From: Rubrivivax benzoatilyticus JA2 = ATCC BAA-35
Lineage (GTDB): Bacteria > Pseudomonadota > Gammaproteobacteria > Burkholderiales > Burkholderiaceae_C
NCBI RefSeq assembly: GCF_000190375.1
Contig: NZ_AEWG01000027.1
Span: 1 to 64,000, forward strand
DNA length: 64,000 bases
Reading direction: 5' to 3'
Of this stretch, positions 6,980 through 51,732 are shown piece by piece. Every line of letters starts with the position of its first letter. Within the stretch, counting starts at the first letter, position 1. Both the position numbers and the translations under genes were made by a program. A model generated the notes under the pieces. The model had not been told where the DNA came from and did no database searches. It saw only the letters and a program-made list of their open reading frames with translations.

Positions 6980-7228
6980 CCGCTCGCGCGGGCACGCCAC
7001 CTCGTTGGCCGGTATCCGGGCTGGCGGACCTGTCCGTGACGCCTTCCCGGTGGCGACGCTGGCGCGCCGCCGTCCCAGTGGCCGTGTCACGGGCCGGAAG
7101 AGCCGGCACGAAGCCGTCTTTCCGTCCGCTTACCGTTGCGGGGGCAGCTCAGGTTGGGGCTCGCGCCGTGACGGCCTCGCCCTTCCTGATTCCCGTTGAA
7201 CTGCCTCGGCGGAAAGCCTCGGCGAGCA
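6980..7228 (-). promoter_or_regulatory. Cobalamin riboswitch for the cbiM-cobO-cobW-cobN operon
   Basis: On the minus strand the conserved core GAGCTGCCCCCGCAACGGTA lies at about 7150-7131, the GCCACTGG element near 7083-7076, and the B12 box GCCAGCCCGGATACCGGCC at 7025-7007. A CAACGAGGTGGCGTGC segment closes the aptamer. The 3' end lies about 160 bases before the cbiM-like start. Cobalamin binding should shut off the leftward operon. Boundaries are estimated from the conserved blocks. Confidence 0.93.
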
Positions 7229-7299
7229 CCAACGCGGCGCATGATACAGGTCAGGTCTCGCGGCGGGGCCGCCGGCGGCGCTGGTTATGATGCCGGCCG
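7229..7299. promoter_or_regulatory. Divergent promoter region between the two riboswitches
   Basis: These 71 bases must hold both promoters. A TATGAT -10-like hexamer faces right at 7286-7291, and a TATCAT hexamer faces left (plus-strand ATGATA, 7241-7246). No good -35 hexamer is seen for either. A copy of GGTCAGGTCTCG lies at 7249-7260 and recurs in the repeat cluster near 21.5 kb. The inverted decamers CGAGCACCAA (7223-7232) and TTGGTGCTCG (7300-7309) flank the region. Promoter positions are tentative. Confidence 0.45.
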
Positions 7300-7517
7300 T
7301 TGGTGCTCGCGCCCACCCTCCGGTGGATGCAGTTCAACGGGAATCAGGGAGGGGCCTCGTGCCCCCAACCTGAGCTGCCCCCGCAACGGTAAGCGGACGG
7401 GGCCTCACCGGCCCCAGCTCGTGTCGAAGCCACTGGGAGTCGTCTCCTGGGAAGGACACACGGGTCGTCTTCGCCAGCCCGGATACCGGCCAACGAGGTG
7501 GCGTGCCGCGCGAGCGG
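7300..7517 (+). promoter_or_regulatory. Cobalamin riboswitch for the methyltransferase-btu operon
   Basis: The core GAGCTGCCCCCGCAACGGTA lies at 7373-7392, GCCACTGGGA begins near 7429, and the B12 box GCCAGCCCGGATACCGGCC is at 7473-7491, followed by CAACGAGGTGGCGTGC. Its 3' block (7472-7517) is a nearly perfect inverted copy of 6980-7026. About 60 bases of possible expression platform separate it from the first start codon at 7576. It should repress uptake genes when cobalamin is abundant. Confidence 0.94.
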
Positions 7518-7575: not shown

Positions 7576-8358
7576 ATGTCTTCCAACGCGCCGGAACTCC
7601 GGCCCGACGCCGCCACGCCCAGCGCCTGGGGCGAGGCCGAAGCCGCGTTCTACGCGCACACCATCGTGCGCTCGGGTTACGCCCGCGCCGTGCTGCCGCT
7701 GCTGCCGCGCTTGCTGCCCGATCTGCTCGACATCGGGGCCGGCAGCGGCGTGCTCAGCCGCCGCATGCTCGCGCCCGGCGCGCGCTGGCACGCCGTCGAA
7801 CCACAGCCCGAGATGCAGCGCCGGCTGCTCGCGCGGCGACCGGCGCTGGCCGTGCGCGGCATCCGTCTGGAGCTGTCGCCCGTCGACTGGACGCAGCTCG
7901 AGCCCGCCGTCGCCGCCGACACGCTGCTGGCCGCGCACCTGCCGCCGGCGCAGCGTGAACCCGCCGCCTTCCACGACGCGATGGCCACACGCTGGCGCCG
8001 CTGCATGGCCTGGGTCGTGCCGGCGCAGGCCGGGCCGGCGACTTTCTGCCTGGCCGGCGTGCTGACGCCCGAACTGCACGGCGCCGACACGCGCCCGGTC
8101 GTCGAACGTGTGCTCGCCGCACTGGGCCCCACACGCGCGCCGCAGGCGCTGCACTTCGCCGACTGGCGCTACGAGGTGTGTTTCGAGTCGCTGGCCGCGG
8201 CCCAGGCGCACGTCATCGAGCGCCTGCGTCTGCTGCCCGGCGACGAACGCCGGCCGCAGGTGCTGGCCCAGGTCGCCGCCTCGGCGCGGCCCGGCCGCCG
8301 CGGCCTGCGCCTGGGCTGCGCCAAACGCAGCGCGGTGCTGCTCTGGCACCGCGACTGA
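7576..8358 (+). CDS. Class I SAM-dependent methyltransferase of unknown role, first gene of the btu operon
   Basis: The product is 260 residues starting at ATG 7576. A SAM-binding motif I is clear: LLDIGAGSG at about residues 50-58, then an acidic residue two strands on (AVEPQPE). No catalytic signature lets me name the substrate, and it does not look like the tetrapyrrole methylases of cobalamin synthesis (CobA, CobI, CobJ, CobM). It sits directly behind a cobalamin riboswitch and 31 bases before btuB, so it should be co-regulated with corrinoid uptake. Possible roles are corrinoid modification or a B12-sparing methylation, both speculative. The predicted protein appears soluble. Confidence 0.8.
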   Translation: MSSNAPELRPDAATPSAWGEAEAAFYAHTIVRSGYARAVLPLLPRLLPDLLDIGAGSGVLSRRMLAPGARWHAVEPQPEMQRRLLARRPALAVRGIRLELSPVDWTQLEPAVAADTLLAAHLPPAQREPAAFHDAMATRWRRCMAWVVPAQAGPATFCLAGVLTPELHGADTRPVVERVLAALGPTRAPQALHFADWRYEVCFESLAAAQAHVIERLRLLPGDERRPQVLAQVAASARPGRRGLRLGCAKRSAVLLWHRD

Positions 8359-8389
8359 CCCTGTTTCCCTCCCTCCAGAAGAAGAGACG

Positions 8390-10522
8390 ATGAAGATGAA
8401 GCCACAGGAAAGATCACCGTCGCGCCACTGGCGCCCTGCCGTGCTGGCGCTGCTGCTGCCGGCCGCCGCCCAGGCCCAGAGCGAGGCCGTCGAGACGGTG
8501 CAGATCACCGCCGAGCGCCGCGTCGTCACCGCGACACGCGTCGCCGAAGACCCGCTGGATCTGCCGTTCTGCACCTACGCCGTCGGCCGCGACGAGATGG
8601 ACGCCGTCGGCGCGCGCACGCTCGAGGACGCGCTGCGCGCCGTGCCCGGGCTGCAGCACGGCACCCAGGGCAACTACTTCACGCGTTTCGAGACCCGCGG
8701 CCTGCGCGACACCCAGGACGTGCTGGTGCTGATCGACGGCGTGCCGCTGCGCCTGCTGCAAGGCAACGCCGACCTGACGCTGGTCGCGCCCGACCTGCTG
8801 GAGCGCATCGAGTTCATCAAGGGCCCGGCTTCGGCGCTGTACGGCCGCAACGCGATCGGCGGCGTCGTGCAGATGTTCATCGAACCCGAGGCCGAAGGCG
8901 GCAGCGCGCGCGCGACGCTGGGCAGCTTCGGCCGCCGCGACCTCGGCCTGCGCCAGCGCTGGGACGGCGAACGCGGCCATCTGTCGGTGGGCGCCGCCTA
9001 CAGCCGCGTCGACGGCTTCCAGGACGGCACGCCGCGCGACCAGGCCACGGCCAGCGTCGGCGGCGAGCTGGCGATGACCCGCGACTGGGCCAGCAGCGTG
9101 CAGCTCTTTTCCAGCCAGGTGAACGCCAAACGCGGCTCGATCGTGCCGCTGAAGGACGGCCATCCGATGTTCGGCATAGCCCCGGAGGACAACTACGGCA
9201 TCCCCGGCGCGCACGTCGACGGCGAGTACCTGAGCCTGGCCTGGCGCAACCGCGTGCGGCTGACGCCGGCGATCAGCTTCGAGCACCTGAGCAGCATGGC
9301 GCGCTACGACCGCCTGTTCCAGGGCGGCATCACCATCGTGCCGCCGCCGGCCGCCGTCACCAAGGGCTGGTCGGAGACCGACACCCAGGACCGCGGGCTG
9401 TTCCACGAGTTCACGCTGAACGCCAAGGCCGAACTCGGTGTGACACGGCACGCGCTGCAGCTCGGGCTGAACCTCGAGTCCGGCTGGCAGGACCAGGCCT
9501 CGCCGTCGTTCAGCGGCGCACCGACCTATCGCGGCCCCGACTACGACACGCCGGTCAGCAACGTCGGCAGCGATCCGCGCGGCATCCGCGGCCCGGTGAC
9601 CGACTCGCGCTTCGACCAGCGCGTGCGCAGCCTGTACCTGCAGGACCGCATCGACATCGGCGCGCTGAGCCTCAGCGCCGGCCTGCGCCACGACCGCTTC
9701 GAGCAGACGCTGCGGCGCAGCGGCACCACCGTGCAGGCGCACCAGGAGGCCAGCCGCACCAGCCCGCGGCTGGGCGCCGACTGGCGCTACGCGGCCTCGG
9801 CGGCGAGCGAGAACGCGCTGTTCGCCAACTGGGCCGAAGGCTTCCGGCCGCAGGCCGTGGCGCTGAACACGCGCTCGGGTGTCGTCGTGCCGGCGCTGCT
9901 GCGCCCGGAAGTCACGCGCAGCCTCGAGATCGGCGCCAAGGGCCGCGCGCTCGACGACCGCTGGAGCTACCAGGTGGCGCTGTTCCAGGCCGACAAGACC
10001 GACGGCCAGCGATCGTTTCGCACCGGGCCCGACAGCTTCATCTTCACCAATGCCAGCTCGCGCGTGCGCGGGCTGGAGACGCTGCTGCGCGCGCGGCTGT
10101 CGGCGGCCTGGTCGGGTTACGCCCACTACACCTGGCAGGACGCGCGGCTGCGCGACTTCCCGACCTATGACAGCGCCGGCAACCCGGGGCCGAACTACGC
10201 CGGCAACCGCATGCGCATGTCGGCGCGCCACATCGCCGGCGCCGGCCTCGCCTGGTCGCAAGGCGACTGGCAGTGGACGGGCAGCGCCAACCACGTCGGC
10301 CGCCGTCCGCTGCGCGACAACGTCGAGCACTCGCAGATCCTGCCGTCGTACACGCTGCTGGCGACGGCCGTCACCTGGCAGGCGACGCCGCGGCTGTCGG
10401 TGCAGGCCGGCGTCGACAACCTCGCCGACGTCGAGTACATCGCCGACGACTTCTCGTCGCAGGAAGCAGGCTGCTTCGGCACGCCGCGCAGCCTGTTCCT
10501 GCGGCTGAAGGCGCAGTGGTAA
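8390..10522 (+). CDS. btuB: TonB-dependent cobalamin receptor BtuB
   Basis: I place the start at ATG 8390, behind a purine-rich AGAAGAG ribosome-binding stretch, giving 710 residues. The open frame continues upstream through the methyltransferase gene but the signal peptide begins here, with probable cleavage after AQA (about residue 29). A TonB box-like ETVQITA follows. Then comes the plug, with DVLVLIDGVPLR and IEFIKGPASALYGRNAIGG, and a 22-strand barrel ending in the aromatic C-terminus KAQW. It would bring corrinoids across the outer membrane. The riboswitch upstream and btuFCD downstream support cobalamin over siderophore as ligand. Confidence 0.92.
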   Translation: MKMKPQERSPSRHWRPAVLALLLPAAAQAQSEAVETVQITAERRVVTATRVAEDPLDLPFCTYAVGRDEMDAVGARTLEDALRAVPGLQHGTQGNYFTRFETRGLRDTQDVLVLIDGVPLRLLQGNADLTLVAPDLLERIEFIKGPASALYGRNAIGGVVQMFIEPEAEGGSARATLGSFGRRDLGLRQRWDGERGHLSVGAAYSRVDGFQDGTPRDQATASVGGELAMTRDWASSVQLFSSQVNAKRGSIVPLKDGHPMFGIAPEDNYGIPGAHVDGEYLSLAWRNRVRLTPAISFEHLSSMARYDRLFQGGITIVPPPAAVTKGWSETDTQDRGLFHEFTLNAKAELGVTRHALQLGLNLESGWQDQASPSFSGAPTYRGPDYDTPVSNVGSDPRGIRGPVTDSRFDQRVRSLYLQDRIDIGALSLSAGLRHDRFEQTLRRSGTTVQAHQEASRTSPRLGADWRYAASAASENALFANWAEGFRPQAVALNTRSGVVVPALLRPEVTRSLEIGAKGRALDDRWSYQVALFQADKTDGQRSFRTGPDSFIFTNASSRVRGLETLLRARLSAAWSGYAHYTWQDARLRDFPTYDSAGNPGPNYAGNRMRMSARHIAGAGLAWSQGDWQWTGSANHVGRRPLRDNVEHSQILPSYTLLATAVTWQATPRLSVQAGVDNLADVEYIADDFSSQEAGCFGTPRSLFLRLKAQW

Positions 10523-41850: not shown

Positions 41851-42690
41851 TCAGGCCGGCTGGGCGCCGCGGCCCAGTTCCTTGCGGTAGCGGTTCAGGT
41901 CCTGGACGTTGGCGAAGCTGCGCCCGAACAGCAGGCCGAGGTTGTGCAGGATGCGTTCGACGACGCGGCCCTCCCACTCGGCGTCGAAGCGGATCTGGCG
42001 GTCCAGCCAGGCCTCGAGCCACGCCGGGTCGGGCAGGCGGCTCTGCACGGTGTCGTTCGGGAACAGGCTGGCGTTGACGTGCAGGTTGGTCGGGTGCAGG
42101 GCCTGCGCGGTGCGGCGCGCGCTGGCCATCAGCACGCCGACCTTGGCGAAGGCGGTGCGCGCCTCGTCGCCGAAGCGCACGAGGGCGCGCTTCATGTAGC
42201 GCAGGTAGGCGCCGCCGTGGCGCGCCTCGTCGCGTGCCAGGGTCTCGTAGATCGCCCGGATCACCGGCTCGGTGTGCCACTCGGCGGCGCGGCGATACCA
42301 GTGGTTGAGACGGATCTCGCCGCAGAAGTGCAGCATCAGCGTCTCCAGCGCCGGCGCCGGGTCGAACTCGAAACGCACCGCGTGCAGCTCGTCCTCGGTC
42401 GGAACGAGCTCGGGGCGGAAGCGCCGCAGGTACTCCATCAGCACCAGCGAGTGCTTCTGCTCCTCGAAGAACCAGACGCTGATGAAGGCCGAGAAGTCGC
42501 TGTCGCCGCGGTTGTCGCGCAGGAACATCTCGGTGGCCGGCAGCGCCGCCCACTCGGTGATGGCGTTCATCTTGATCGTCTGCGCCTGCTCGTCGCTGAG
42601 CAGGGCGGCGTCGAAACGCTCCCACGGGATGTCCGTGTCGAGGTTCCAGCGCACGGCTTCGAGCTGCTTGAAGAGTTCGGGATACAGCAT
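41851..42690 (-). CDS. Ferritin-like diiron protein, acyl-ACP-desaturase-like
   Basis: The 279-residue helical protein carries a complete diiron ligand set: E46 in TEW, E77-x-x-H80 in FEEQKHS, E125 in CGEIRLNH, and E155-x-x-H158 in RDEARHG. This is the ferritin-like/desaturase-type arrangement. The spacing matches the fatty-acid desaturase type 2 and related oxidase folds, but I cannot assign a substrate. It lies 75 bases after litR on the same strand, so it may be part of the light-regulated lipid locus. An O2-dependent desaturation or oxidation of an acyl chain is a reasonable inference. Confidence 0.8.
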   Translation of the reverse strand: MLYPELFKQLEAVRWNLDTDIPWERFDAALLSDEQAQTIKMNAITEWAALPATEMFLRDNRGDSDFSAFISVWFFEEQKHSLVLMEYLRRFRPELVPTEDELHAVRFEFDPAPALETLMLHFCGEIRLNHWYRRAAEWHTEPVIRAIYETLARDEARHGGAYLRYMKRALVRFGDEARTAFAKVGVLMASARRTAQALHPTNLHVNASLFPNDTVQSRLPDPAWLEAWLDRQIRFDAEWEGRVVERILHNLGLLFGRSFANVQDLNRYRKELGRGAQPA

Positions 42691-42765
42691 GACGGGGCAA
42701 AGGTGTCGCGACGCTGCAGTCTAGGCAGCGGCGGCCTCCCGCGTGCGCGGCGGGTTGTTCCGGCT

Positions 42766-43704
42766 TCAGCCCCGCGCTTCGCGCCAGCGCTGCAGCTCGA
42801 CGCCGATGCGCTCCAGCGAGTCGAGGGCGGTGACGCCGTCGATGCGGCGGCGGAACAGCACCGGCGCGCTGCCGCCGACCCACAGCCCGGTGCCGGCCGG
42901 CAGCTTCTCGCGCAGCTCGGCCAGGCCGTCGACGACCTGGTTGGGGCTCATGCAGCCGGAGAAGCTCAGCGCGACGACGTCGGCGCGGTAGCTGCGCGCG
43001 GCCAGCACGATGTCCCACAGCGGCGTCTGCGTGCCCAGCGCGACGCAGCGGCAGCCGTCCATCGCCATCAGCGTCTCGCACATCAGCAGGCCCAGGCCGT
43101 GCGGCTCGCCGGGGAAGGTGGTCAGCAGCACCGACGGCGCACCGCCGTCCAGCGGCTCGGGCACCGAGGCGATGGCCTGGCGCAGCAGGCTCTGCACGGT
43201 CTCGGTGTACAGGTGCTCCTCGTAGACCTCGACCTGCCCGCGCAGCCAGGCGTCGCCGACGGCGGTGTTCAGCGGCGCGACGACGTCGACGACGAAGCGC
43301 GAGATGCCGTGGCGCACCAGCATGCGGCCGAGCTCGCGACGCAGCGCGGCGGGGTCGTGGCGGCGCAGCAGTTCGAGCGCGCGGTCGAGATCGGCCGCCG
43401 CCACCGGGTTCTCGGCGCGGCGCTGGGGCTGGTCGACGGTCGACGCGGTGAGCTCGTTGAGCTCGGCGGCCGGCATCGGCACGATGCGGCCCGGCCGGTG
43501 CCCGGCGTCGAGCAGGCGCTTGATGAGGCGGAGCTTCTCGACCTGCTCGAGCGGGTAGGCCCGCTCGCCCTGCGCGTCACGCGACGGCGACGGGAAGCCG
43601 TAGCGCCGCTCCCAGACCCGCAAGGTGTCTTTGCTGAGCCCGGTGTCGCGCTCGACAGCGGCGATCGACAGCGTCAGCGCTTCAGCCGTGGTGCGATCGC
43701 TCAT
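42766..43704 (-). CDS. litR: LitR/CarH-family adenosylcobalamin-dependent light-sensing MerR regulator
   Basis: The 312-residue protein has an N-terminal MerR winged helix (about 10-75, with TGLSKDTLRVWERRYGFPSP). A helical-bundle domain carries W153-x9-E163-H164, followed by a B12-binding Rossmann domain with E200-x-H202-x-x-G205. These are the Wx9EH and ExHxxG signatures of CarH-type photoreceptors, so adenosylcobalamin binding is expected. In the dark such proteins repress promoters, and light cleaves the Co-C bond and releases them. It is divergent from the operon starting near 43.9-44.2 kb. Cobalamin uptake genes in this window could supply its ligand. Confidence 0.93.
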   Translation of the reverse strand: MSDRTTAEALTLSIAAVERDTGLSKDTLRVWERRYGFPSPSRDAQGERAYPLEQVEKLRLIKRLLDAGHRPGRIVPMPAAELNELTASTVDQPQRRAENPVAAADLDRALELLRRHDPAALRRELGRMLVRHGISRFVVDVVAPLNTAVGDAWLRGQVEVYEEHLYTETVQSLLRQAIASVPEPLDGGAPSVLLTTFPGEPHGLGLLMCETLMAMDGCRCVALGTQTPLWDIVLAARSYRADVVALSFSGCMSPNQVVDGLAELREKLPAGTGLWVGGSAPVLFRRRIDGVTALDSLERIGVELQRWREARG

Positions 43705-43722
43705 CCGTTCCGCCTTGTGGTT

Positions 43723-43794
43723 GTCCTGGACAAAACCATGCTTGATTTCAAAAGTTGGCCTAATATAGGCCCAAGCCCAGGTTTTGAACAGGAC
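43723..43794. promoter_or_regulatory. litR intergenic operator region with inverted 15-mers
   Basis: GTCCTGGACAAAACC (43723-43737) recurs inverted as GGTTTTGAACAGGAC (43780-43794), 13 of 15 matching. Between them lies the palindrome GGCCTAataTAGGCC (43757-43771). TTGATT (43742-43747) with TATAGG 16 bases later is a possible rightward sigma-70 promoter. The boxes are candidate LitR sites; no CarH-type operator consensus is claimed. Confidence 0.55.
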
Positions 43795-43836
43795 ACGGCC
43801 TCGTCAACGACGTGGCATGAACTGCAAGACCTGAAA

Positions 43837-43854
43837 GATGACTGTATAGTCATC
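43837..43854 (+). promoter_or_regulatory. Palindrome overlapping a likely -10 element
   Basis: GATGACTgtatAGTCATC has perfect 7-bp arms and contains TATAGT, a good -10 hexamer, about 20-30 bases before the ribosome-binding site GAGAGG of the short ORF at 43874. A -35 hexamer is not clear, which fits an activator- or repressor-controlled promoter. Confidence 0.45.
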
Positions 43855-43873
43855 CTCATACCGAGAGGTTCAC

Positions 43874-44185
43874 ATGACACCGAAGCCGCAGCCGATCCCC
43901 AGGTTCGCCTCCCCCGCGTGGCCATTGGCCGCGGAACTTTGCGCGACGGTCCCGGTCACAGCGGGCAAGCAGGTCGCCACCGCGGCCACGGTTCTCACGT
44001 CGTGCGGACTCACGGGTTCCCTGTCTGCCAAGCCTGAGCGTTTCTCCTCCTCCTCCCTCCCTCCCTCGTTCGCTCAGCGCCGCCGCACGACGGCTTTTCT
44101 TTCCCGGCGCACCGCCTCGCGCGGTGCGCCGGCCCTGCGGGGCCACGGCCCGCTGAACGCGCATGGCGCGGCGGGGAGCCGCTGA
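43874..44185 (+). CDS. Possible 103-residue small protein or leader ORF
   Basis: ATG 43874 follows GAGAGG at a six-base spacing and the frame ends with TGA overlapping the next gene's ATG (TGATG at 44183-44187), so translation could be coupled. The sequence starts MTPKPQPIPRFASPAWPLA and is low in acidic residues. Its latter half is Ser- and Arg-rich and resembles translated non-coding DNA. No family is recognised. Alternatively this stretch is an untranslated leader with a strong hairpin at 44104-44132. Evidence for a real protein is limited to the start site and the coupled stop. Confidence 0.3.
   Translation: MTPKPQPIPRFASPAWPLAAELCATVPVTAGKQVATAATVLTSCGLTGSLSAKPERFSSSSLPPSFAQRRRTTAFLSRRTASRGAPALRGHGPLNAHGAAGSR
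44104..44132. other. Perfect 12-bp hairpin in the operon leader
   Basis: CCGGCGCACCGC pairs with GCGGTGCGCCGG around a five-base loop. It is preceded by TTTTCTTT but not followed by a T-run on either strand, so it is not a typical intrinsic terminator. It could shape the leader RNA before the start at 44185. Confidence 0.7.
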
Positions 44186-45477
44186 TGCGCCGCGTCGCCG
44201 TCGTCGGCTCCGGAATCTCCGGCCTCGCCGCTGCCTACGAGCTGTCCGCCGATGCCCGCGTCACGCTGTTCGAGGCGGGCGACTACTTCGGGGGCCACAC
44301 CAACACGATCGACCTGACGATCGACGGCGTCACGCACGGCGTGGACACCGGCTTCCTGGTGTTCAACCACCGCACCTACCCGAACCTGCTGCGCCTGTTC
44401 GCCGAACTCGGCGTCGAGACGGCGCCGTCGGACATGTCGTTCTCGGTGCAGGCGCGCGAGCACGACCTGGAGTGGAGCGGCTCGGACCTGAACACGGTCT
44501 TCGCGCAGCGCCGCAACCTGCTGCGCCCGCGCTTCCTGAAGATGCTGGCCGAGATCGTGCGCTTCAACCGCCTGGCGACGGCGATCGCCGAAGCCGCCGC
44601 CGAGGACGCGCTGGCCGAGCCGATCGGCGAGTTCCTGGACCGCCACGCCTTCGGCAACGATTTCCGCGACTGGTACTTCCTGCCGATGATCGGCTGCATC
44701 TGGTCCTGCCCGACCGATCAGATGCTGCGCTTCCCGGTGGCGACGATGATCCGCTTCTGCCACAACCACGGGCTCATCCAGGTGAACGACCGGCCGCAGT
44801 GGCACACGGTCAAGGGCGGCGCCCGCAACTACGTCCGGAAGATGCTGCCGCGCATCGCCGACGCGCGTGTCTCCTGCCCGGTGTTCGAGATCCGCCGCGA
44901 CGCCGACGGCGTGAGCGTCACCTCGCCGGCCGGCACCGAACGGTTCGACGAGCTCGTGCTCGCCTGCCACAGCGACCAGGCGCTGGCGCTGCTGGCCGAC
45001 GCCAGCGACGACGAGCGCGCTGTGCTCGGTGCGATCCGCTACCAGCCCAACCGCGCCGTCGTGCACAGCGACGCTTCGGTGCTGCCCAAGCGCAAGCTGG
45101 CCTGGGCGTCGTGGAACTACGTGCGCTCGCCCGACCGCGGCCGCGAGCAGGCGGCCGTCTGCCTGCACTACCTGCTCAACCGGCTGCAGCCGCTGCCGTG
45201 GACGACGCCGGTCGTCGTCTCGCTGAATCCCGTCACCGAGCCCGCACCGGGCACCGTGTTCCGCGAGATCGAGTACACGCACCCGGTGTTCGACCTCGGC
45301 GCGATCGAGGCCCAGCGCCGCGTGCCGGCGCTGCAGGGCCGCGCCCGCACCTGGTTCTGCGGCGCCTGGACCCGCTACGGCTTCCACGAGGACGGGCTGG
45401 CCTCGGCGCTGGACGCGGTGCGCTCGCTGCGTTCGCACTGGCAGGCCGGCCGCCCGGCGCTGCACGAGGCGGCGTGA
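44185..45477 (+). CDS. FAD/NAD(P)-binding oxidoreductase (flavin amine-oxidase family)
   Basis: The 430-residue protein begins RRVAVVGSGISGLAAAYEL, an FAD-binding GxGxxG motif, then FGGHTNTIDL and GVDTGFLVFNHRTYPNLLRLFAELGV. This matches the desaturase/amine oxidase-like group associated with cyclopropane- or furan-fatty-acid loci. A related protein lies in the Rhodobacter sphaeroides RpoE/ChrR-regulated operon, from memory. It is the first robust gene of the litR-divergent operon, with a one-base overlap to the next gene. A redox step on a phospholipid acyl chain is inferred. Confidence 0.88.
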   Translation: MRRVAVVGSGISGLAAAYELSADARVTLFEAGDYFGGHTNTIDLTIDGVTHGVDTGFLVFNHRTYPNLLRLFAELGVETAPSDMSFSVQAREHDLEWSGSDLNTVFAQRRNLLRPRFLKMLAEIVRFNRLATAIAEAAAEDALAEPIGEFLDRHAFGNDFRDWYFLPMIGCIWSCPTDQMLRFPVATMIRFCHNHGLIQVNDRPQWHTVKGGARNYVRKMLPRIADARVSCPVFEIRRDADGVSVTSPAGTERFDELVLACHSDQALALLADASDDERAVLGAIRYQPNRAVVHSDASVLPKRKLAWASWNYVRSPDRGREQAAVCLHYLLNRLQPLPWTTPVVVSLNPVTEPAPGTVFREIEYTHPVFDLGAIEAQRRVPALQGRARTWFCGAWTRYGFHEDGLASALDAVRSLRSHWQAGRPALHEAA

Positions 45478-46238
45478 TGGACGGCACCACCCCGCAGGCC
45501 TTGCTGGGCACCGGCGTCGTGCGCCACCGGCGGCTGAAGCCGGCCGGGCACACGTTCGAGTACCCGACCTACTTCATGCTGCTGCCGATGCGGCGGCTGC
45601 GGGCGCAGCCCGAGGCCGCGGTGCGGCGCAACCGCTTCGGCCTCGTCGCCTTCCACGACGCCGACCACGGCGACGGCCGCGCCGACTCGCTGGCCTGGCT
45701 GGAGGAGCTGCTGGCCGCCGAAGGCATCGCCGACGCCGACGGCGAGATCTGGCTGCACACCTACCCGCGTGTGCTGGGCTACGTCTTCAAGCCGGTCAGC
45801 TTCTGGTACTGCGAGCGCCGCGACGGCTCGCTGGCGGCGATCGTCGCCGAGGTCAACAACACCTTCGGCGAGCGCCACTGCTACCTGCTCGCCGGCGAGG
45901 ACCTGCGCTGGGGCCGAGAGCTCGTCGCGCGCAAGGTCTTTCACGTGTCGCCGTTCTGCCGCGTCGAAGGCCGCTACCGTTTCCGCTTCCTGCGCACCGC
46001 CGAGCGCACGGTGGCGCGCGTGGACCACGACGACGACGAAGGCCCGCTGCTGCTGACCAGCGTCAGCGGCCGCCTGGCCCCGCTGACCACGGCCGCCGCG
46101 CGCGCGGCCTTCTTCGGCATGCCGATGATGTCCCTGGGCGTCATCGTGCGCATCCACTGGCAGGCGCTGCAGCTGTGGCTCAAGCGCGTGCCGTTCTTCA
46201 GCAAGCCCGAACCGCCCCGGGCCTTCACCACCCGCTGA
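45477..46238 (+). CDS. DUF1365 family protein
   Basis: The 253-residue product starts at ATG 45477 (TGATG overlap). Family marks are LLGTGVVRHRRLKPAGHTFEYPTYFMLLPM and LHTYPRVLGYVFKPVSFWYC...VAEVNNTFGERHCYLL. DUF1365 genes almost always sit between an FAD oxidoreductase and a CFA-type methyltransferase, so it must act in the same lipid pathway. No catalytic activity is established. No signal peptide is present. Confidence 0.9.
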   Translation: MDGTTPQALLGTGVVRHRRLKPAGHTFEYPTYFMLLPMRRLRAQPEAAVRRNRFGLVAFHDADHGDGRADSLAWLEELLAAEGIADADGEIWLHTYPRVLGYVFKPVSFWYCERRDGSLAAIVAEVNNTFGERHCYLLAGEDLRWGRELVARKVFHVSPFCRVEGRYRFRFLRTAERTVARVDHDDDEGPLLLTSVSGRLAPLTTAAARAAFFGMPMMSLGVIVRIHWQALQLWLKRVPFFSKPEPPRAFTTR

Positions 46239-46251
46239 CCCAGGAACCGCC

Positions 46252-47475
46252 ATGACGACGACGACCGCCGACGCCTTCGCCCTGCCCGAGTCCGCTCCCG
46301 CGGCCGCACGCACCGTCTTCCGCCTGCTGCGCCGGCTGGCCGTCGGCACGCTGGACGTGCAGCTGCCCGACGGCAGCCTGGCCCACTTCGGCACCGGCCG
46401 CGACGGCGAGCCCCGCGCGTCGATGCGCATGATCGACTGGGGCGTCTGCTCGGCGACGCTGAAGAGCGGCGACATCGGCTTCGCCGAGGCCTACATCGAC
46501 GGCCAGTGGACCTCGCCCGACGTGGTCGCGCTGCTGCAGCTGTTCATCGCCAACCGCGACGCGGTCGAGGAGGCGATCTACGGCCGCTGGTGGGGTTCGC
46601 TGCTGCACCGCTTCAAGCACCTGCTGAACCGCAACTCGCGCCGCGGCAGCCGCAAGAACATCCACGCCCACTACGACCTGGGCAATCCGTTCTACCGTCT
46701 CTGGCTCGACGAGACGATGAACTACTCCAGCGCCTGGTTCGACGGCGACACGGACAAGCCGATGCCCGAGGCCCAGCGCGCCAAGGTGCGGCGCGCGCTG
46801 CGCGAGTGCGGCGTGCGCGCCGGCGACCGCGTGCTCGAGATCGGCTGCGGCTGGGGCGCGGTGGCCGAGGCCGCGACCAACGAGTTCGGCGCCCGCGTCA
46901 CCGGCGTCACGCTGTCGACCGAGCAGCTGGCCTACGCCCGCGAACGCCTGGCGCGCCTGGGCCTGGGCACGCAGGCCGACCTGCGGCTGCAGGACTACCG
47001 CGACATCCAGGACGGCCCCTTCGACGCCGTCGTCTCGATCGAGATGTTCGAAGCCGTCGGCCGCGAGTACTGGGGCAGCTACTTCCGCACCGTGCGCGAC
47101 CGGCTCAAGCCCGGCGGCCGCGCCTGCATCCAGTCGATCACGATCCGCGACGACCTGTTCGCGCGCTACGTGCGATCGACCGACTTCATCCAGCAGTACG
47201 TCTTCCCCGGCGGCCTGCTGCCCAGCGCCTCGGCGTTCCGCGCCGAAGCCCGCAAGGCCGGGCTGGAGGTCGTCGGCGAGCTGGCTTTCGGTGCCGACTA
47301 CGCCGAGACGCTGCGCCGCTGGCGCGTCGCCTTCCTCGCGAACGAGAACACGGTGCGCGCCCAGGGCTTCGACACGCGTTTCGTGCGCATCTGGGAGTTC
47401 TACCTCGCGTACTGCGAGGCGGCCTTCGCCACCGGCAACACCAACGTCGTGCAGTTCACGCTGCGCCGTGCCTGA
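46252..47475 (+). CDS. CFA-family phospholipid methyltransferase (UfaM-like, not a canonical cyclopropane synthase)
   Basis: The 407-residue protein has SAM motif I VLEIGCGWGAVAEAA and the lipid-site segment HAHYDLGNPFYRLWLDETMNYSS. In E. coli CFA synthase the equivalent region reads YSCAYW with a functional Cys, but here it is YSSAWF. The conserved His of the EHVG motif is Ala here (MFEAVG). Both changes argue against cyclopropanation and fit the UfaM-type methylases that add a branch methyl to unsaturated acyl chains. The gene is 13 bases after DUF1365 and abuts the next gene. Substrate is inferred. Confidence 0.88.
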   Translation: MTTTTADAFALPESAPAAARTVFRLLRRLAVGTLDVQLPDGSLAHFGTGRDGEPRASMRMIDWGVCSATLKSGDIGFAEAYIDGQWTSPDVVALLQLFIANRDAVEEAIYGRWWGSLLHRFKHLLNRNSRRGSRKNIHAHYDLGNPFYRLWLDETMNYSSAWFDGDTDKPMPEAQRAKVRRALRECGVRAGDRVLEIGCGWGAVAEAATNEFGARVTGVTLSTEQLAYARERLARLGLGTQADLRLQDYRDIQDGPFDAVVSIEMFEAVGREYWGSYFRTVRDRLKPGGRACIQSITIRDDLFARYVRSTDFIQQYVFPGGLLPSASAFRAEARKAGLEVVGELAFGADYAETLRRWRVAFLANENTVRAQGFDTRFVRIWEFYLAYCEAAFATGNTNVVQFTLRRA

Positions 47476-48015
47476 ATGGACCGCACCCGCCGCGCCCTGC
47501 TCGCCGCCGCGCTGGTCCCGGCGTACGCGGCCGCGGCCCGGACGCCGCCGCCACCCGAGCTCGCCGCCTACGCGCCGCTGGCACTGCAGGGCGAAGGCCG
47601 GCTGCGCGTGCTGGGCTTCGCCGTCTACGACGCCCGGCTGTGGGTCGGAGAGGGCTTCACGCCCGAGCGCTGGGCCGACGCGCCGCTGGCGCTGGAGATC
47701 CGCTACACCCGCGCCTTCGACGGCGCGGACATCGCCTCCCGCTCGCTGGACGAAATGCGTCGCCAGGGCGAACTGCCCGAGGCACAGGCGCAACGCTGGC
47801 GCCAGACGATGGCGGCACTGTTCCCCGACGTGAAGCCGGGTGACCGCCTGGTCGGCGTGCGCCGCGCCGACGGCGGCACACGCTTCTACGCCAACGGCCG
47901 GCGCCTGGGCGAGGTCGACGACACCGAGTTCGGCCGCCGCTTCTTCGGCATCTGGCTGGCGCCGCAGACCTCGCAGCCGACGCTGCGCGCGCGCCTGTTC
48001 GGGCAGACGGCATGA
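47476..48015 (+). CDS. Chalcone-isomerase-like secreted protein
   Basis: This 179-residue protein has an N-terminal twin-Arg/hydrophobic export signal (RTRRALLAAALVPAYAAA). The mature region with LRVLGFAVYDARLWVG, LEIRYTRAFDGADIASRSLDEM and RFFGIWLAPQTSQPTLR fits the chalcone-isomerase-like fold (bacterial CHI-like, fatty-acid-binding). Such proteins are found in light-responsive lipid operons. A role in handling fatty acyl intermediates is likely but not proven. It starts immediately at the stop of the methyltransferase and overlaps the transporter start. Confidence 0.83.
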   Translation: MDRTRRALLAAALVPAYAAAARTPPPPELAAYAPLALQGEGRLRVLGFAVYDARLWVGEGFTPERWADAPLALEIRYTRAFDGADIASRSLDEMRRQGELPEAQAQRWRQTMAALFPDVKPGDRLVGVRRADGGTRFYANGRRLGEVDDTEFGRRFFGIWLAPQTSQPTLRARLFGQTA

Positions 48016-49310
48016 ACACGGCGGGCCTGGACGCAGGCGGGCCCGCAACCCCGGCGGCCCGCTGGCGCGGCGGCTTGGCCGACGGCCTGCGCTACGGCGC
48101 GCTGGGCCTGCCGCTGGCCTTCGTCGCGCTGCCGCTGTACGTGCTGCTGCCGCCGCACTACGCCGCCGAATACGGCGTGCCGCTGGCGACGCTGGGCGCG
48201 CTGCTGCTGGCGGTGCGGCTGCTCGACGCCGTCATCGACCCGGCGCTCGGCCGCCTCGTCGACCGTTTGTTCACCGGCTCGCCGGCTCGGCTGCTGGCCG
48301 TCGCCGCGGCGGCGGCGCTGCTGCTGGCCGCGGCCTTCCACGGCCTGTTCTTCCCGCCGGTGACGGCCGGCACGGCACTGCTGGCTTGGTGCGCGGCGCT
48401 GCTCGTCGCCGCCTACCTGGCCTACAGCCTGCTCGCCGTGCTGCACCAGGCCTGGGGCGCGCGCCTGGGCGGCGACGCCGCGGTGCGCGCACGCATCGTG
48501 TCCTGGCGCGAAGGCCTGGCGCTGGCCGGCGTGCTGGTGGCCAGCGTGCTGCCGTCGACCGCCGGCCTGGCGGCGACCAGCGCCGCGTTCGCCGTCACGC
48601 TGGTGATCGGCCTCGTGCTGCTGGCCGGCGCGCCGCGCGCCGAGGCGACGCCGGCCGCGGCCCGGGTCGACTGGCGAGCGCCGCTGGCGACGCCGGCCTT
48701 CCGCCGCCTGCTCGCCGTCTTCCTGGTCAACGGCATCGCCAGCGCGGTGCCGGCGACGCTGGTGCTGTTCTTCGTGCGCGACCGGCTGCAGGCCCCGGCC
48801 TGGGAGCCGGTGTTCCTGGCCGCCTACTTCGCCGCCGGCGCGCTGGCGATGCCGCTGTGGGTGCGGCTCGTGGCGCGCCTCGGGCTGGCCGGCGCCTGGC
48901 TGGCCGGCATGGCGCTGGCCGTCGCCGCCTTCGTCTGGGCGGCGACGCTGGGTCCAGGCGACACCGCCGGATTCGTCGCGGTCTGCGTCGCCAGCGGCGT
49001 CGCGCTCGGCGCCGACCTGGCGCTGCCCGGCGCGCTGCTGGCCGGCATCGTGCGCCGCGCCGGCCACGGTGGCGGCGAAGGCGCGTACTTCGGCTGGTGG
49101 AACCTGGCCACCAAGCTCAACCTGGCGCTGGCCGCCGGGCTGGCGCTGCCGCTGCTCGGGCTGCTGGGCTACGCGCCCGGCGCACGCGAACCCGAGGCGC
49201 TGGCGGCGCTCACCGCCGCCTACTGCCTGCTGCCCTGTGTGCTGAAGACCGCCGCCGCCGCACTGCTGTGGCGTTGGCGGCACCGACTCGACGAGGAGAA
49301 CCCACGATGA
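48012..49310 (+). CDS. GPH/MFS-type transporter
   Basis: The 432-residue membrane protein has about twelve hydrophobic segments. The GPH/MFS_2 hallmark (LLDAVIDPALGRLVDR, about residues 73-88, and FGWWNLATKLNLALAAGLALPLLG late in the protein) is visible. Comparable genes lie in light- or singlet-oxygen-regulated operons of other proteobacteria. Family members move sugars, lipids or peptides with H+ or Na+, so the substrate here could be a lipid or its precursor. Start overlaps the previous stop (ATGA). Confidence 0.87.
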   Translation: MNTAGLDAGGPATPAARWRGGLADGLRYGALGLPLAFVALPLYVLLPPHYAAEYGVPLATLGALLLAVRLLDAVIDPALGRLVDRLFTGSPARLLAVAAAAALLLAAAFHGLFFPPVTAGTALLAWCAALLVAAYLAYSLLAVLHQAWGARLGGDAAVRARIVSWREGLALAGVLVASVLPSTAGLAATSAAFAVTLVIGLVLLAGAPRAEATPAAARVDWRAPLATPAFRRLLAVFLVNGIASAVPATLVLFFVRDRLQAPAWEPVFLAAYFAAGALAMPLWVRLVARLGLAGAWLAGMALAVAAFVWAATLGPGDTAGFVAVCVASGVALGADLALPGALLAGIVRRAGHGGGEGAYFGWWNLATKLNLALAAGLALPLLGLLGYAPGAREPEALAALTAAYCLLPCVLKTAAAALLWRWRHRLDEENPR

Positions 49311-49834
49311 AGCGACGCCTGCTGCTCGGCCTGGCCACCGCCGCGGTACTGGCCGGCTGCGCCGGCCCGACACCGGCCGACTACGCCGCCGAGACCCCGA
49401 AGCTCGACCTGAAGACCTTCTTCGACGGCGAGATGACGGCCCACGGCATCTTCAGCGACCGCTCGGGCAAGGTCGTGCGCCGCTTCACGGTGCAGATGAC
49501 CGGCACCTGGACCGGCGACGACGGCGTGCTCGACGAGCACTTCACCTACAGCGACGGCAAGACCGAGCGCCGCGTCTGGAAGCTGAAGTCGCTGGGCAAC
49601 GGCCGCTACGAAGGCCGCGCCGACGACGTCGTCGGTGTCGCCCAGGGCACGGCCGCCGGCAACGCGCTGAACTGGCGCTACACGCTGCGGCTGCCGGTCG
49701 ACGGCAGCGTCTACGAGGTCCAGTTCGACGACTGGATGTTCCAGATGGACGACAAGGTGATGCTGAACAAGGCCGAGATGAGCAAGTTCGGCGTCCGCCT
49801 GGGCGAGGTCACGCTCGCCTTCCACAAGCGCTGA
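49307..49834 (+). CDS. DUF3833 lipoprotein
   Basis: ATG 49307 follows GAGGAG, giving 175 residues with a lipobox LAGC (Cys about residue 19), so it is a lipid-anchored protein. The rest matches DUF3833: LDLKTFFDGEMTAHGIFSDRSGKVVRRFTVQMTGTW...YEVQFDDWMFQMDDKVMLNKAEMSKFGVRLGEVTLAF, a lipocalin-like beta fold. It may carry or sense modified lipids in the envelope. Its start overlaps the transporter stop by four bases and the SDR gene starts five bases after its stop. Confidence 0.87.
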   Translation: MKRRLLLGLATAAVLAGCAGPTPADYAAETPKLDLKTFFDGEMTAHGIFSDRSGKVVRRFTVQMTGTWTGDDGVLDEHFTYSDGKTERRVWKLKSLGNGRYEGRADDVVGVAQGTAAGNALNWRYTLRLPVDGSVYEVQFDDWMFQMDDKVMLNKAEMSKFGVRLGEVTLAFHKR

Positions 49835-49839
49835 ACACC

Positions 49840-50625
49840 ATGCCCCTGAACCCTCCGCTGCGCGACTGGCAGGGCCGCAGCGCCTGGCTGGTCGGCGCCT
49901 CCACCGGCATCGGCCGCGCGACGGCCTCGCGGCTGCACGCGCTGGGTGCGCGTGTCACCGTCTCGGCGCGCGACGCCGACGCGCTGGCGCGTTTCGTCGC
50001 CGCGCATCCGGGCAGCGTCGCGCTGCCACTGGACGTGACCGACCGCGCCGCGGTGCAGGCCGCAGCCCGGGAGGTGATCGCCGGCTCGGGCACTCCCGAC
50101 CTGGCCCTGTACTGCGCCGGCACCTACACGCCGATGCGCGCCACCGCCTTCGACCTGGACGTCGCGCTGCGCCACGTGCAGGTGAACTACGCCGGCGCGC
50201 TGCACTGGCTCGACGCGCTGCTGCCGGCGATGCGCGCGCGCGCCGCCGCCGGCCAGAGCGCGCACCTGAGCCTGGTCGGCAGCGTCGCCGGCTACCGCGG
50301 CCTGCCGCAGTCGCTGGCCTACGGGCCGACGAAGGCGGCGCTGATCAACCTCGCCGAGACGCTGTACCTGGACCTGCACCCGGCCGGCGTCGGCGTGTCC
50401 ATCGTCAACCCGGGCTTCGTCGAGACGCCGCTGACGGCGAACAACGGGTTTCGCATGCCGGCCCTGCTGACGCCCGAAGAAGCCGCCGAGGCCATCCTGC
50501 GCGGCTGGGCGCGCGGCGACTTCGAGATCCACTTCCCGCGCCGCTTCACGCTGTGGCTGAAGGCGCTGCGCCACGTCGGCTACGGCCCCTATTTCGCCGC
50601 GGTGCGGCGCTCCACCGGCCTGTGA
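49840..50625 (+). CDS. Short-chain dehydrogenase/reductase
   Basis: The 261-residue SDR has the nucleotide motif LVGASTGIG (about 17-25), a Ser near SLVGSVAGYRG, and the catalytic YGPTKAAL (Tyr and Lys). It probably reduces or oxidises a keto/hydroxy intermediate, NADP-dependent. The gene is co-located with the lipid operon and lies two bases before the NTF2-like gene. Substrate unknown. Confidence 0.9.
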   Translation: MPLNPPLRDWQGRSAWLVGASTGIGRATASRLHALGARVTVSARDADALARFVAAHPGSVALPLDVTDRAAVQAAAREVIAGSGTPDLALYCAGTYTPMRATAFDLDVALRHVQVNYAGALHWLDALLPAMRARAAAGQSAHLSLVGSVAGYRGLPQSLAYGPTKAALINLAETLYLDLHPAGVGVSIVNPGFVETPLTANNGFRMPALLTPEEAAEAILRGWARGDFEIHFPRRFTLWLKALRHVGYGPYFAAVRRSTGL

Positions 50626-50627
50626 CG

Positions 50628-51068
50628 ATGAAGAGCCCGCATCCCGACCCGCGTGTGCAGCGCCTGGTGGAAGCCTTCGAGACGCTGTCGCCGGCCGCGC
50701 TGGCGCGGCTGGGCGAGGTCTACGCGCCCGACGCCGTGTTCAAGGACCCGTTCAACGAGGTGCGCGGCGTGCCGGCGATCGCCGCGATCTTCGAGCACAT
50801 GTTCCGCTCGCTGGAGGCGCCGCGTTTCGTCGTGCACGAGGCGGTGGCTTCAGGCGACCAGTGTTTCCTGACCTGGGACATGCACTACCGCATGAAACGC
50901 TTCGTGCAAGGCGAGCAGACGATCCGCGGCGCGACCCACGTCCGTTTTGCCGCCGACGGGCGCGTCGTGCTGCACCGCGACTACTGGGACGCCGCCGAGG
51001 AGCTGTACGAAAAGCTGCCCGCCGTCGGTGCCGCGATGCGCTGGCTCAAGCGCCGCGCGTCGAGCTGA
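50628..51068 (+). CDS. NTF2-like/SnoaL family protein
   Basis: The 146-residue product starts at ATG 50628. The region RLVEAFETLSPAALARLGEVYAPDAVFKDPFNEVRGVPAIAAIFEHMF is characteristic of SnoaL/NTF2-like proteins, followed by GATHVRFAADGRVVLHRDYWDAAEELYEKLP. It is a cone-shaped fold used as enzyme or binding protein. As the last gene of the operon it probably handles the same hydrophobic product. No signal peptide. Confidence 0.85.
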   Translation: MKSPHPDPRVQRLVEAFETLSPAALARLGEVYAPDAVFKDPFNEVRGVPAIAAIFEHMFRSLEAPRFVVHEAVASGDQCFLTWDMHYRMKRFVQGEQTIRGATHVRFAADGRVVLHRDYWDAAEELYEKLPAVGAAMRWLKRRASS

Positions 51069-51120: not shown

Positions 51121-51250
51121 AGCCTCCCTCGCGGAGGGAGGCTGGAGGGTGCCGTCTATCGAACTGGAGCCCCCTCCCGGAGGGGGCCGCGGGGAGCCCA
51201 AGGTTCAGCGGCAGCATCAGCAGTCCGGGCAGCGTGGCCGCCCGGACTGC
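51121..51250. terminator. Hairpin cluster ending the lipid operon and the convergent gene
   Basis: Three stems fill the 180-base gap: AGCCTCCCT/AGGGAGGCT (51121-51143), GCCCCCT/AGGGGGC (51169-51187) and GCAGTCCGGGC/GCCCGGACTGC (51220-51250). None is followed by a clear T-run, so they are structural or weak terminators between convergent transcripts. Confidence 0.55.
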
Positions 51251-51732
51251 TAACGCTGCCCTTCGGTCAAGGCGTCGACCTGGAAGCGCCCGCTCTTGTC
51301 GACGAGCCAGATCTCGGTGAAGCGTGCGCCGCCCAGGCGCGCCGGCGCCGGGTAGGGTGCGGCGCGTTTGATCATCGCCACGACCCAGGGCGCGACCTCG
51401 TCGGCCGCGGGCTTGCGCACGACGTGCACGCCGGCGACCTGGCCCGTCGCGTCGATCTCGGTCTCGACGACCATCACCGAGTACAGCAGCGGCGGCAGCC
51501 GGCCCTTGTAGATGCGTGCAGGATAGGCGGCGTAGACGTGCCGCGCAGCCTCGACACGGTACTGCTTCTCGTGCTCGGCGGACGAGGCCGCCGGTGGCAG
51601 GTCCAGCACGGGCGCGGGCACGGTGGCGAACTGGGCCCGGGCCGGGCCGGCGAACGCCAGGGCCGCCAGCGCGGCCACCGCGGCGGCATGTCGCAGGCGG
51701 GCACTCGCGGTCAGGGGCGGGAGTCGATTCAT
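51250..51732 (-). CDS. Secreted TonB-C-like domain protein
   Basis: The 160-residue protein has a signal peptide (RLRHAAAVAALAALAFAGPARA-QF). The mature part, with LYSVMVVETEIDATGQVAGVHVVRKPAADEVAPWVVAMIKRAAPYPAP, has the look of a TonB C-terminal-like fold. It lacks the transmembrane anchor of TonB and the proline stretch, so it is not a working TonB. Function is unknown. It ends at the last hairpin of the convergent gap and starts about 125 bases downstream of corA. Confidence 0.7.
   Translation of the reverse strand: MNRLPPLTASARLRHAAAVAALAALAFAGPARAQFATVPAPVLDLPPAASSAEHEKQYRVEAARHVYAAYPARIYKGRLPPLLYSVMVVETEIDATGQVAGVHVVRKPAADEVAPWVVAMIKRAAPYPAPARLGGARFTEIWLVDKSGRFQVDALTEGQR

Follow-up and report, generated by a model that had tools for sequence, protein, structure and literature searches.

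What does a cobalamin-binding regulator of the LitR/CarH type control when it stands divergent from lipid-modification genes, and what lies in the gap between them? We addressed this question in a 64,000-nucleotide stretch of Rubrivivax benzoatilyticus JA2 (contig NZ_AEWG01000027.1, positions 1 to 64,000; hereafter the window, whose numbering is used throughout). An initial annotation had described a light-regulated lipid-modification locus headed by a complete B12 photoreceptor at positions 41,851 to 51,068. It saw the genes and their motifs, and overlooked candidate operator sites and a structured RNA, both contained in the 480-bp gap between litR and the first lipid gene, ufaD. What is new here is the operator and, most of all, the RNA; the lipid genes hold no surprise, and the regulator varies on a familiar type. 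The central features are as follows.

42766 to 43704, minus strand: litR, 312 amino acids (aa), class-I-like LitR/CarH regulator (Pfam PF13411, PF02607 and PF02310; match to PDB 5c8d)
43721 to 43733, no strand assigned: operator site 1, candidate LitR site, perfect palindrome TTGTCCTGGACAA
43761 to 43766, plus strand: -10-like box TAATAT, between both operator sites and facing ufaD
43784 to 43796, no strand assigned: operator site 2, candidate, TTGAACAGGACAC, 63 bp from site 1
43999 to 44104, plus strand: structured RNA with a three-way junction, supported by covariation and with no Rfam match
44185 to 45477, plus strand: ufaD, FAD/NAD-binding desaturase-like protein, 430 aa (Pfam Amino_oxidase and NAD_binding_8; gene order and description as for UfaD in PMC7380195)

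We explain this arrangement, with moderate confidence, as a light switch that joins LitR, its operator, the RNA and a set of furan fatty acid genes. In the dark, LitR carrying adenosylcobalamin would repress a promoter between litR and ufaD by binding the two 13-bp operators that flank it. Light would break the Co-C bond, LitR would release the DNA, and one rightward transcript would be made, carrying the small structured RNA and then ufaD, ufaO, ufaM and accessory genes. The anti-Shine-Dalgarno loop of the RNA could pair with the ribosome-binding sites of other mRNAs, and the furan genes would convert membrane vaccenoyl chains to furan fatty acids, possible quenchers of oxidants formed in the light. 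A bolder version is offered tentatively: that the RNA represents an undescribed small RNA family, belonging to the window's family within the Burkholderiales, whose three-way junction presents a CCUCC-repeat loop and silences mRNAs through their Shine-Dalgarno sequences, and that, in the many genomes where litR adjoins it, a CarH-type photoreceptor without the residue His132 switches the RNA, glutathione peroxidase and furan lipids as one unit. If true, B12 light sensing would extend from carotenoids to membrane furan lipids, and there would be a concrete operator, with CarH-like proteins that lack His132 as a natural test of the need for this ligand. A conserved regulator carried by 146 of the 200 family genomes sampled would then have gone without an entry in Rfam 15, and it would parallel the anti-Shine-Dalgarno RNAs of alphaproteobacteria by a different architecture.

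The stretch just 5' of ufaD matched across relatives in several reading frames, which points to conservation at the DNA level. This multi-frame conservation and the covarying stems led us to reject the idea that an open reading frame (ORF) at 43874-44185 is a short gene opening the operon. The element comprises stems P1 (43999-44007 with 44083-44091), P2 (44012-44016 with 44020-44024) and P3 (44031-44040 with 44071-44080), with a CUCCUCC-rich loop on P3 (44041-44070) and a U-rich tail after P1. Candidate elements were cut, by match to a CT-rich pattern, from two sets of intergenic gaps: 35 of 48 litR-ufaD gaps (LitR+) and 16 of 24 gaps in which ufaD faces the diiron gene described below with no litR (LitR-), giving 51 elements. 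These gaps (47 LitR+, to which the window was added, and 24 LitR-) had been thinned by shared ends only, and near relatives remain among them. Thirty-one of the elements make up A3, a plain MAFFT alignment with ends trimmed by hand; the 20 omitted are mainly cuts with a shifted start, together with L129, L116 and L126, which fit more poorly, and L052, L134 and L139, which were left out for no good reason. RNAalifold on A3 gives the three-way junction with 22 pairs, 17 of which changed on both sides. Cells at these pairs could pair in 93.2% of cases, against 79.2% in shuffled alignments and 36-50% in slid versions, and no shuffle among 500 scored as high on any of five measures.

A covariance model, R1, still recovers L129, L116 and L126 (76.7, 67.4 and 46.0 bits). 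When 93 hits (82 distinct rows) were aligned to R1 to give A4, 21 of the 22 pairs covary and none of 500 shuffles reached this level, although such pair counts lean to the model, and the 92 sources had been chosen because R1 already matched their genomes. G-U cells outnumber A-C cells by 185 to 17, so the RNA is most likely read on the plus strand, that of ufaD. For member-by-member counts the 93 hits were reduced to 72 by dropping ten second genome copies, two hits near contig ends, two score duplicates and the four weakest hits, and also L222, L226 and L238, for no good reason. CCTCC occurs in all 72 elements and at least twice in 71, counted over the whole element and mainly in the P3 loop. 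A T-rich stretch precedes P1 in 65 members, and TTT follows in the tail in 64. No conserved -35/-10 block marking a promoter of the RNA's own was found in the 120 bp upstream of the 72 members; a hairpin followed by a T-run lies downstream in 23 of them, the window not included. Membership in a known Rfam family was rejected: Rfam 15 gives no match at 43999-44104, and none at E up to 0.1 at the element in 22 loci including the window. Five matches around the window locus (E 0.088-0.78) all lie away from 43999-44104 and below the gathering score.

The distribution of the element is wide within one family. Among 61 relatives, R1 matched 32 of the 37 that share the window's genus and none of the 24 genomes from other families. 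The genome draws used stricter filters, by which weak members may be lost; in them the element turned up in 146 of 200 genomes from the window's family, spread over 105 of 141 genera, and in 5 of 200 from the order, each of the five a member of that family. It is a single-copy element, except in one genome with a second, weak hit. Fifty-four of the best 80 named loci carry it, in genera that include Rubrivivax, Caldimonas, Roseateles, Rhizobacter, Ramlibacter and Hydrogenophaga, and glnE and corA often mark its neighbourhood. Among 31 wider-family loci hand-picked across the score range (the second, weak hit, L307, included), ufaD lies beside the RNA in 17 and is not adjacent in 14. In ten same-genus loci, chosen because no ufa gene adjoins the RNA, the element stands just 5' of a convergent corA or tonB-like gene. 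We rejected a role solely as a ufaD leader on these wider-family and same-genus loci. In four genomes with the RNA and no adjacent ufa gene (G001, G012, G013 and G029, of which G013 is 80% complete), no match to UfaO was found genome-wide at E 0.001. Since the element persists in places that have neither litR nor furan genes, it is probably a small RNA in its own right, most likely a stand-alone RNA gene. One locus with the RNA and no adjacent ufa gene, L104, has a leftover piece of an NTF2-like gene, which hints at loss of the operon.

The RNA could instead act mainly in cis, with P1 and the U-rich tail forming a terminator or attenuator that meters read-through into ufaD, whether from the LitR promoter or from genes for glutathione peroxidase or FolE2 that occupy some of these gaps. 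In the window the RNA does lie between the LitR promoter and ufaD, the TTT in 64 of 72 members follows the P1 region, and in several members P1 is directly followed by ACTTTTTTATT. Attenuation is possible because this U-rich tail comes before ufaD. As the main function we nonetheless find it doubtful: loci L245-L249 keep the RNA before convergent tonB-like or corA genes with no ufaD after it, the 14 wider-family loci likewise have no ufaD adjoining, and the loop sequence is, in our judgement, more constant than a terminator needs.

The window RNA carries CCUCC in a loop, as is characteristic of the cuckoo and alpha-r14 RNAs, and has an architecture other than the three hairpins of alpha-r14. 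The CcsR or cuckoo RNAs of Rhodobacter are also of the CCUCC anti-Shine-Dalgarno type. According to the available sections of PMC10253847, CcsR RNAs sit with a DUF1127 gene and are said to matter in stress defence. The rhizobial RNA NfeR1/alpha-r14, as presented in excerpts of PMC10746234, also holds its CCUCC anti-Shine-Dalgarno sequences in unpaired loops that stay constant while the stems vary, and blocks a ribosome-binding site with such a loop. It differs in having three hairpins, each with CCUCCUCCC, whereas the Burkholderiales RNA of the window has one long loop in a three-way junction. We think silencing in trans more likely than attenuation of ufaD. We found no publication describing the RNA among the titles and abstract openings listed, a search that covers subscription journals thinly. 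The portions consulted of a 2010 survey (PMC2864571) list a Burkholderiales-1 motif with no Rfam number and with "?" as to whether it is an RNA; our element may be this motif, which is known to us by its table row. The main text of the other RNA surveys, in the parts available, contains none of the terms Burkholderi-, Rubrivivax or Comamon-.

We next consider the other new element of the gap. A 13-bp palindrome, TTGTCCWGGACAA, precedes litR, and a weaker copy often lies 63-65 bp away. The motif was found by contrasting the 47 LitR+ gaps with the 24 LitR- gaps. When two mismatches are allowed, 38 of the 48 LitR+ gaps contain it, compared with 1 of the 24 LitR- gaps (means of dinucleotide shuffles 0.85 and 0.40); the counts are 24 of 48 and 0 of 24 with up to one mismatch (0.05 and 0), and 43 of 48 and 5 of 24 with up to three. 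Because these gaps had served to pick the motif, held-out loci were then tested. A site with up to two mismatches lies within 300 bp of litR in 9 of 11 held-out LitR+ loci (shuffled 0.00), one of which, L279, shares both sites with discovery gap L156 and is thus a near relative; in held-out loci without LitR such a site occurs in 1 of 21, over 900 bp (shuffled 0.30). The two LitR+ misses are L285 and L292, whose LitR proteins have lost their cobalamin motifs. A second site 61-67 bp away is present in 25 of 48 LitR+ gaps, with spacings of 63 bp in 16, 64 bp in 6 and 65 bp in 2, and in none of the 24 LitR- gaps. When 38 gaps are aligned on the site, their profile shows a TAATATA block at positions +40 to +46, between the two sites, and 20 of these gaps fit a loose -10 pattern there.

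Judged from sequence, TTGTCCWGGACAA is likely the LitR operator. The two sites look like a repressor pair on one helix face, about six turns apart, to which LitR would bind. The half-site GGACA fits the TnnACA of CarH repeats loosely, and the operator is unlike the sites of class II LitRs of Pseudomonas, TGTACA-N12-TGTACA. The perfect palindrome occurs once in the 4.13-Mb genome (164 contigs), at litR. A LitR regulon elsewhere in the genome was not apparent at up to one mismatch, with three sites (one of them the perfect site at litR) against two for a reversed-pattern control; the other one-mismatch sites lie at G000:C21:18030-18042 and G000:C123:38837-38849, a number not above the control. 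Of the 48 LitR+ gaps, 18 encode glutathione peroxidase between operator and ufaD and 4 encode FolE2 there; one example of each was checked against Pfam (PF00255, 113 bits; PF02649, 303 bits). The presence of one or the other in 22 of 48 LitR-bearing gaps fits a unit for photo-oxidative stress. L044 is among the loci with such a gene after the operator; the window's own gap has neither.

LitR itself has the domain order MerR HTH (PF13411), B12-binding_2 (PF02607) and B12-binding (PF02310). The first two exceed their Pfam cut-offs, and PF02310 (E 5e-07, 30.0 bits) falls slightly under its cut-off of 32.1. The annotated cobalamin signatures, W153-x9-E163-H164 and E200-x-H202-x-x-G205, are both exactly as first written. 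The longer lower-face motif, D/ExHx2G/P-x41-SxT/V-x22-27-GG, is present with the right spacings as E200, H202, G205, S247, G277 and G278, its single departure being Ser249 where T or V is expected; the cobalamin-contact residues of CarH are those named in excerpts of PMC9304148. The solved Thermus CarH (PDB 5c8d) matches LitR at E 2.2e-26, and 65 of 70 distinct LitR relatives from the loci examined keep all six of W, E, H, E/D, H and G, so the motifs are not chance matches. LitR scores 123.6 bits against the NCBIfam CarH equivalog NF052513, under the 400-bit cut-off, and is therefore not filed as CarH sensu stricto. As in the class I LitR/CarH proteins of Thermus, Myxococcus and Bacillus megaterium, the domain order, Wx9EH and lower-ligand motif are all present. 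Those systems differ in having 11-bp direct repeats and carotenoid gene neighbours, whereas here there are a palindrome pair, lipid-modification genes and no His after the Trp. The data support a regulator of the CarH/LitR type whose cobalamin signatures are intact and which diverges from lipid-modification genes, with candidate operators found mostly in gaps that contain litR, and we infer that it binds B12; the word "complete", which the initial annotation had used of the photoreceptor, is too strong and needs a caveat because the light-state upper ligand is missing. L154 of LitR occupies the position of TtCarH His132, the upper cobalt ligand in light, and the equivalent of this His is missing from all 70 LitRs.

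Several observations weigh against the light-switch explanation. The window RNA on its own folds only slightly better than shuffled sequences (z -1.66), and the case for the RNA rests on covariation for this reason; read-through into ufaD is not assured, because the RNA has a U-rich tail before that gene. As to the operator, the discovery-set contrast is not independent, the same gaps having picked the motif, whereas the held-out contrast is. At up to three mismatches the LitR- gaps (5 of 24) are close to the shuffled level of 3.35, and 5 of 48 LitR+ gaps have no site even at this tolerance. A scan of the window gap with the strict sigma-70 consensus gave no promoter match. Five of the 70 LitRs have lost part of the cobalamin motif: a single residue in L241, L052 and L298, and the Trp, the Glu-His and the ligand His altogether in L285 and L292, which still stand at the same genomic place and are in a CarA-like state. 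His directly after the motif Trp was found in none of 70 distinct LitRs, the residue there being Met, Leu, Ile, Val, Ala or Ser. In TtCarH, His132 caps the cobalt after light and the H132A variant mostly stayed tetrameric when lit, according to the accessible text of PMC10442372, a 2023 study.

The last two points would fit a LitR that binds DNA and is no CarH-type light switch, and that may respond to the supply of cobalamin or to redox state, or depend on a partner protein. Class II LitRs, which use a LOV partner instead of B12 (PMC9758184), offer a precedent. We consider such a regulator rather unlikely, since 65 of 70 LitRs retain the adenosyl-contacting Trp, the Glu-His and the lower-ligand His along with the remainder of the motif. 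The available part of PMC9304148 attributes the upper-ligand His to "many", not all, CarH proteins, and PMC10442372, in the same accessible text, notes that an earlier study had reported disassembly of H132A. The LitR clade, which lacks an equivalent of His132, offers a natural way to probe the His switch.

The genes downstream of the RNA are those that LitR would control. All ten genes listed in the initial annotation are present, with coordinates exact or a few bases off. Those that follow ufaD are:

45480 to 46238, plus strand: ufaO, DUF1365 protein, 252 aa (PF07103, 267 bits)
46252 to 47475, plus strand: ufaM, CMAS/CFA-like S-adenosylmethionine (SAM) methylase, 407 aa (PF02353, 281 bits)
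47476 to 48015, plus strand: chalcone-isomerase-like (CHI-like) protein, Chalcone_3 (PF16036, 43 bits)
48012 to 49310, plus strand: MFS_2 transporter (PF13347, 154 bits)
49307 to 49834, plus strand: DUF3833 protein (PF12915, 246 bits; N-terminus lipoprotein-like by eye)
49840 to 50625, plus strand: short-chain dehydrogenase (SDR), adh_short (PF00106, 110 bits)
about 50628 to 51068, plus strand: SnoaL/NTF2-like protein, SnoaL_2 (PF12680, 75 bits)

In the sections of PMC7380195 available, UfaD is an FAD/NAD-type desaturase, UfaM a SAM methylase and UfaO a DUF1365 protein that inserts O2-derived oxygen into the furan. The three suffice for the furan fatty acid 9M5-FuFA in Rhodobacter, and single deletions of RSP1087, RSP1088 or RSP1089 left the furan product unchanged. 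The window operon has the three domain types adjacent and in the D-O-M order of Rhodopseudomonas palustris (RPA2571-2569), and RSP1091-1087 with RSP2144 of Rhodobacter sphaeroides provide the same UfaD-type FAD enzyme, DUF1365 UfaO and SAM methylase UfaM. By domains and gene order, therefore, the operon looks like the known furan fatty acid set UfaD-UfaO-UfaM with accessory genes, whose product would be a furan fatty acid. The CHI-like, MFS, DUF3833, SDR and NTF2-like genes accompany the operon in many relatives, with the order mostly kept and some genes missing. Because they travel with it, the combination that had been singled out is not peculiar to this genome.

The setting differs from the furan sets of R. 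sphaeroides and R. palustris in its structured RNA and diiron gene. In R. sphaeroides, furan fatty acid rises on loss of ChrR (PMC7380195, same sections), whereas here a LitR/CarH-type gene is divergent from the operon. The nearest parallel in regulation is in Pseudomonas: the class II LitRs PplR and PmlR belong to the same family and bring ufaM, folE and photolyase genes under light control, those of P. putida acting on ufaM, phrB and folE, as told in PMC9758184. They differ in having no usable B12 domain and in working with a LOV protein (PMC9758184). We found no publication pairing a class I LitR with ufa genes within the same literature search.

The remaining gene lies on the other side, 3' of litR:

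41851 to 42690, minus strand: diiron protein, acyl-ACP-desaturase-like, 279 aa (PF03405, 31.3 bits)

The PF03405 (FA_desaturase_2) match exceeds its gathering cut-off of 22.7 and covers residues 134-184 only. A predicted model (mean confidence score, pLDDT, 82.8) has an acyl-ACP-desaturase-like fold, its best matches being plant acyl-ACP desaturases (Foldseek E 5e-05, TM about 0.6), with Z 18.6, rmsd 3.6 and 236 aligned residues against 4v0j (VIA). R2-like oxidases come next, at up to Z 16.6, and with other diiron families at Z 14.6-16.6 the fold does not settle which family the protein belongs to. In a sequence-only PDB profile search the best desaturase had E 0.005 and a designed helix bundle ranked first. 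Residues E54, E77xxH80, E125 and E155xxH158 are invariant in 13 of 13 diiron proteins, and this E...ExxH...E...ExxH pattern suggests that they are iron ligands.

As for its place in the operon, we examined 80 named loci, the best 80 of at least 585 and thus leaning to close relatives; several end at contig edges, and "alone" here means alone in the stretch examined. In 52 of them ufaD accompanies the diiron gene; litR separates the two in 29 of these and does not in 23. The other 28 have litR only (4), an NTF2-like gene (1) or none of the nine other genes (23); by eye from clusters, a CorA-like ORF accompanies 15 of these 23 lone diiron loci and a GlnE-like ORF 10. In three other families (L094, L099 and L100) the diiron gene follows the last gene of the operon on the same strand. 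When one genome was taken from each of 24 further families in the order, diiron protein and UfaO (at least 40% identity) were both found in 8, diiron only in 1, UfaO only in 1 and neither in 14, of which three have weaker DUF1365 hits (one-sided Fisher p about 1e-4). Class-wide, and leaving aside the window's family, 4 of the 10 genomes with the diiron gene have DUF1365, against 108 of 357 other genomes. The early view of the diiron protein as part of the operon thus stands to the extent that the genes are linked in many loci, although the gene is also found without the operon. An obligate partnership was rejected on the 23 lone loci and the class-wide 4 of 10. With a link to UfaO at the level of the order and none class-wide, the diiron protein often accompanies the operon yet must serve some separate function as well. 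In four loci of the class outside the order (L204, L205, L211 and L212) a short-chain dehydrogenase directly precedes the diiron gene, which hints at a two-gene unit.

The first proposal, a distinct acyl-chain pathway in which the product is a methyl-branched or cyclopropane chain and the diiron protein serves as an additional desaturase or oxygenase, would draw on the predicted desaturase fold and the order-level co-occurrence, yet is improbable and was rejected as first choice: UfaD, UfaO and UfaM suffice for furan in Rhodobacter and are matched here in domains and order, so that no new pathway is needed, and the class-wide count and the 23 lone loci separate the diiron protein from the other genes.

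By appearance the host is a purple bacterium from the Rubrivivax gelatinosus group, because the assembly has two reaction-centre genes (PF00124) and the top named match of the diiron protein, in a comparison that may omit very near records, is 93% identical and comes from Rubrivivax gelatinosus IM 151. A B12 cofactor is plausible in this host, since the window also has homologues of cobN (758-4537, minus strand) and cobW (4537-5583, minus strand) near two divergent cobalamin riboswitches, at 6990-7248 (minus strand) and 7284-7509 (plus strand), which score 49.4 and 62.3 bits. An ORF at 8108-10522 (plus strand), near the same riboswitches, is TonB-dependent-receptor-like by eye. Beyond the operon, an ORF of 160 aa at 51250-51732 (minus strand) is TonB-like by eye and has no Pfam match at 1e-5; in some loci its relatives lie between the RNA or the operon and corA.

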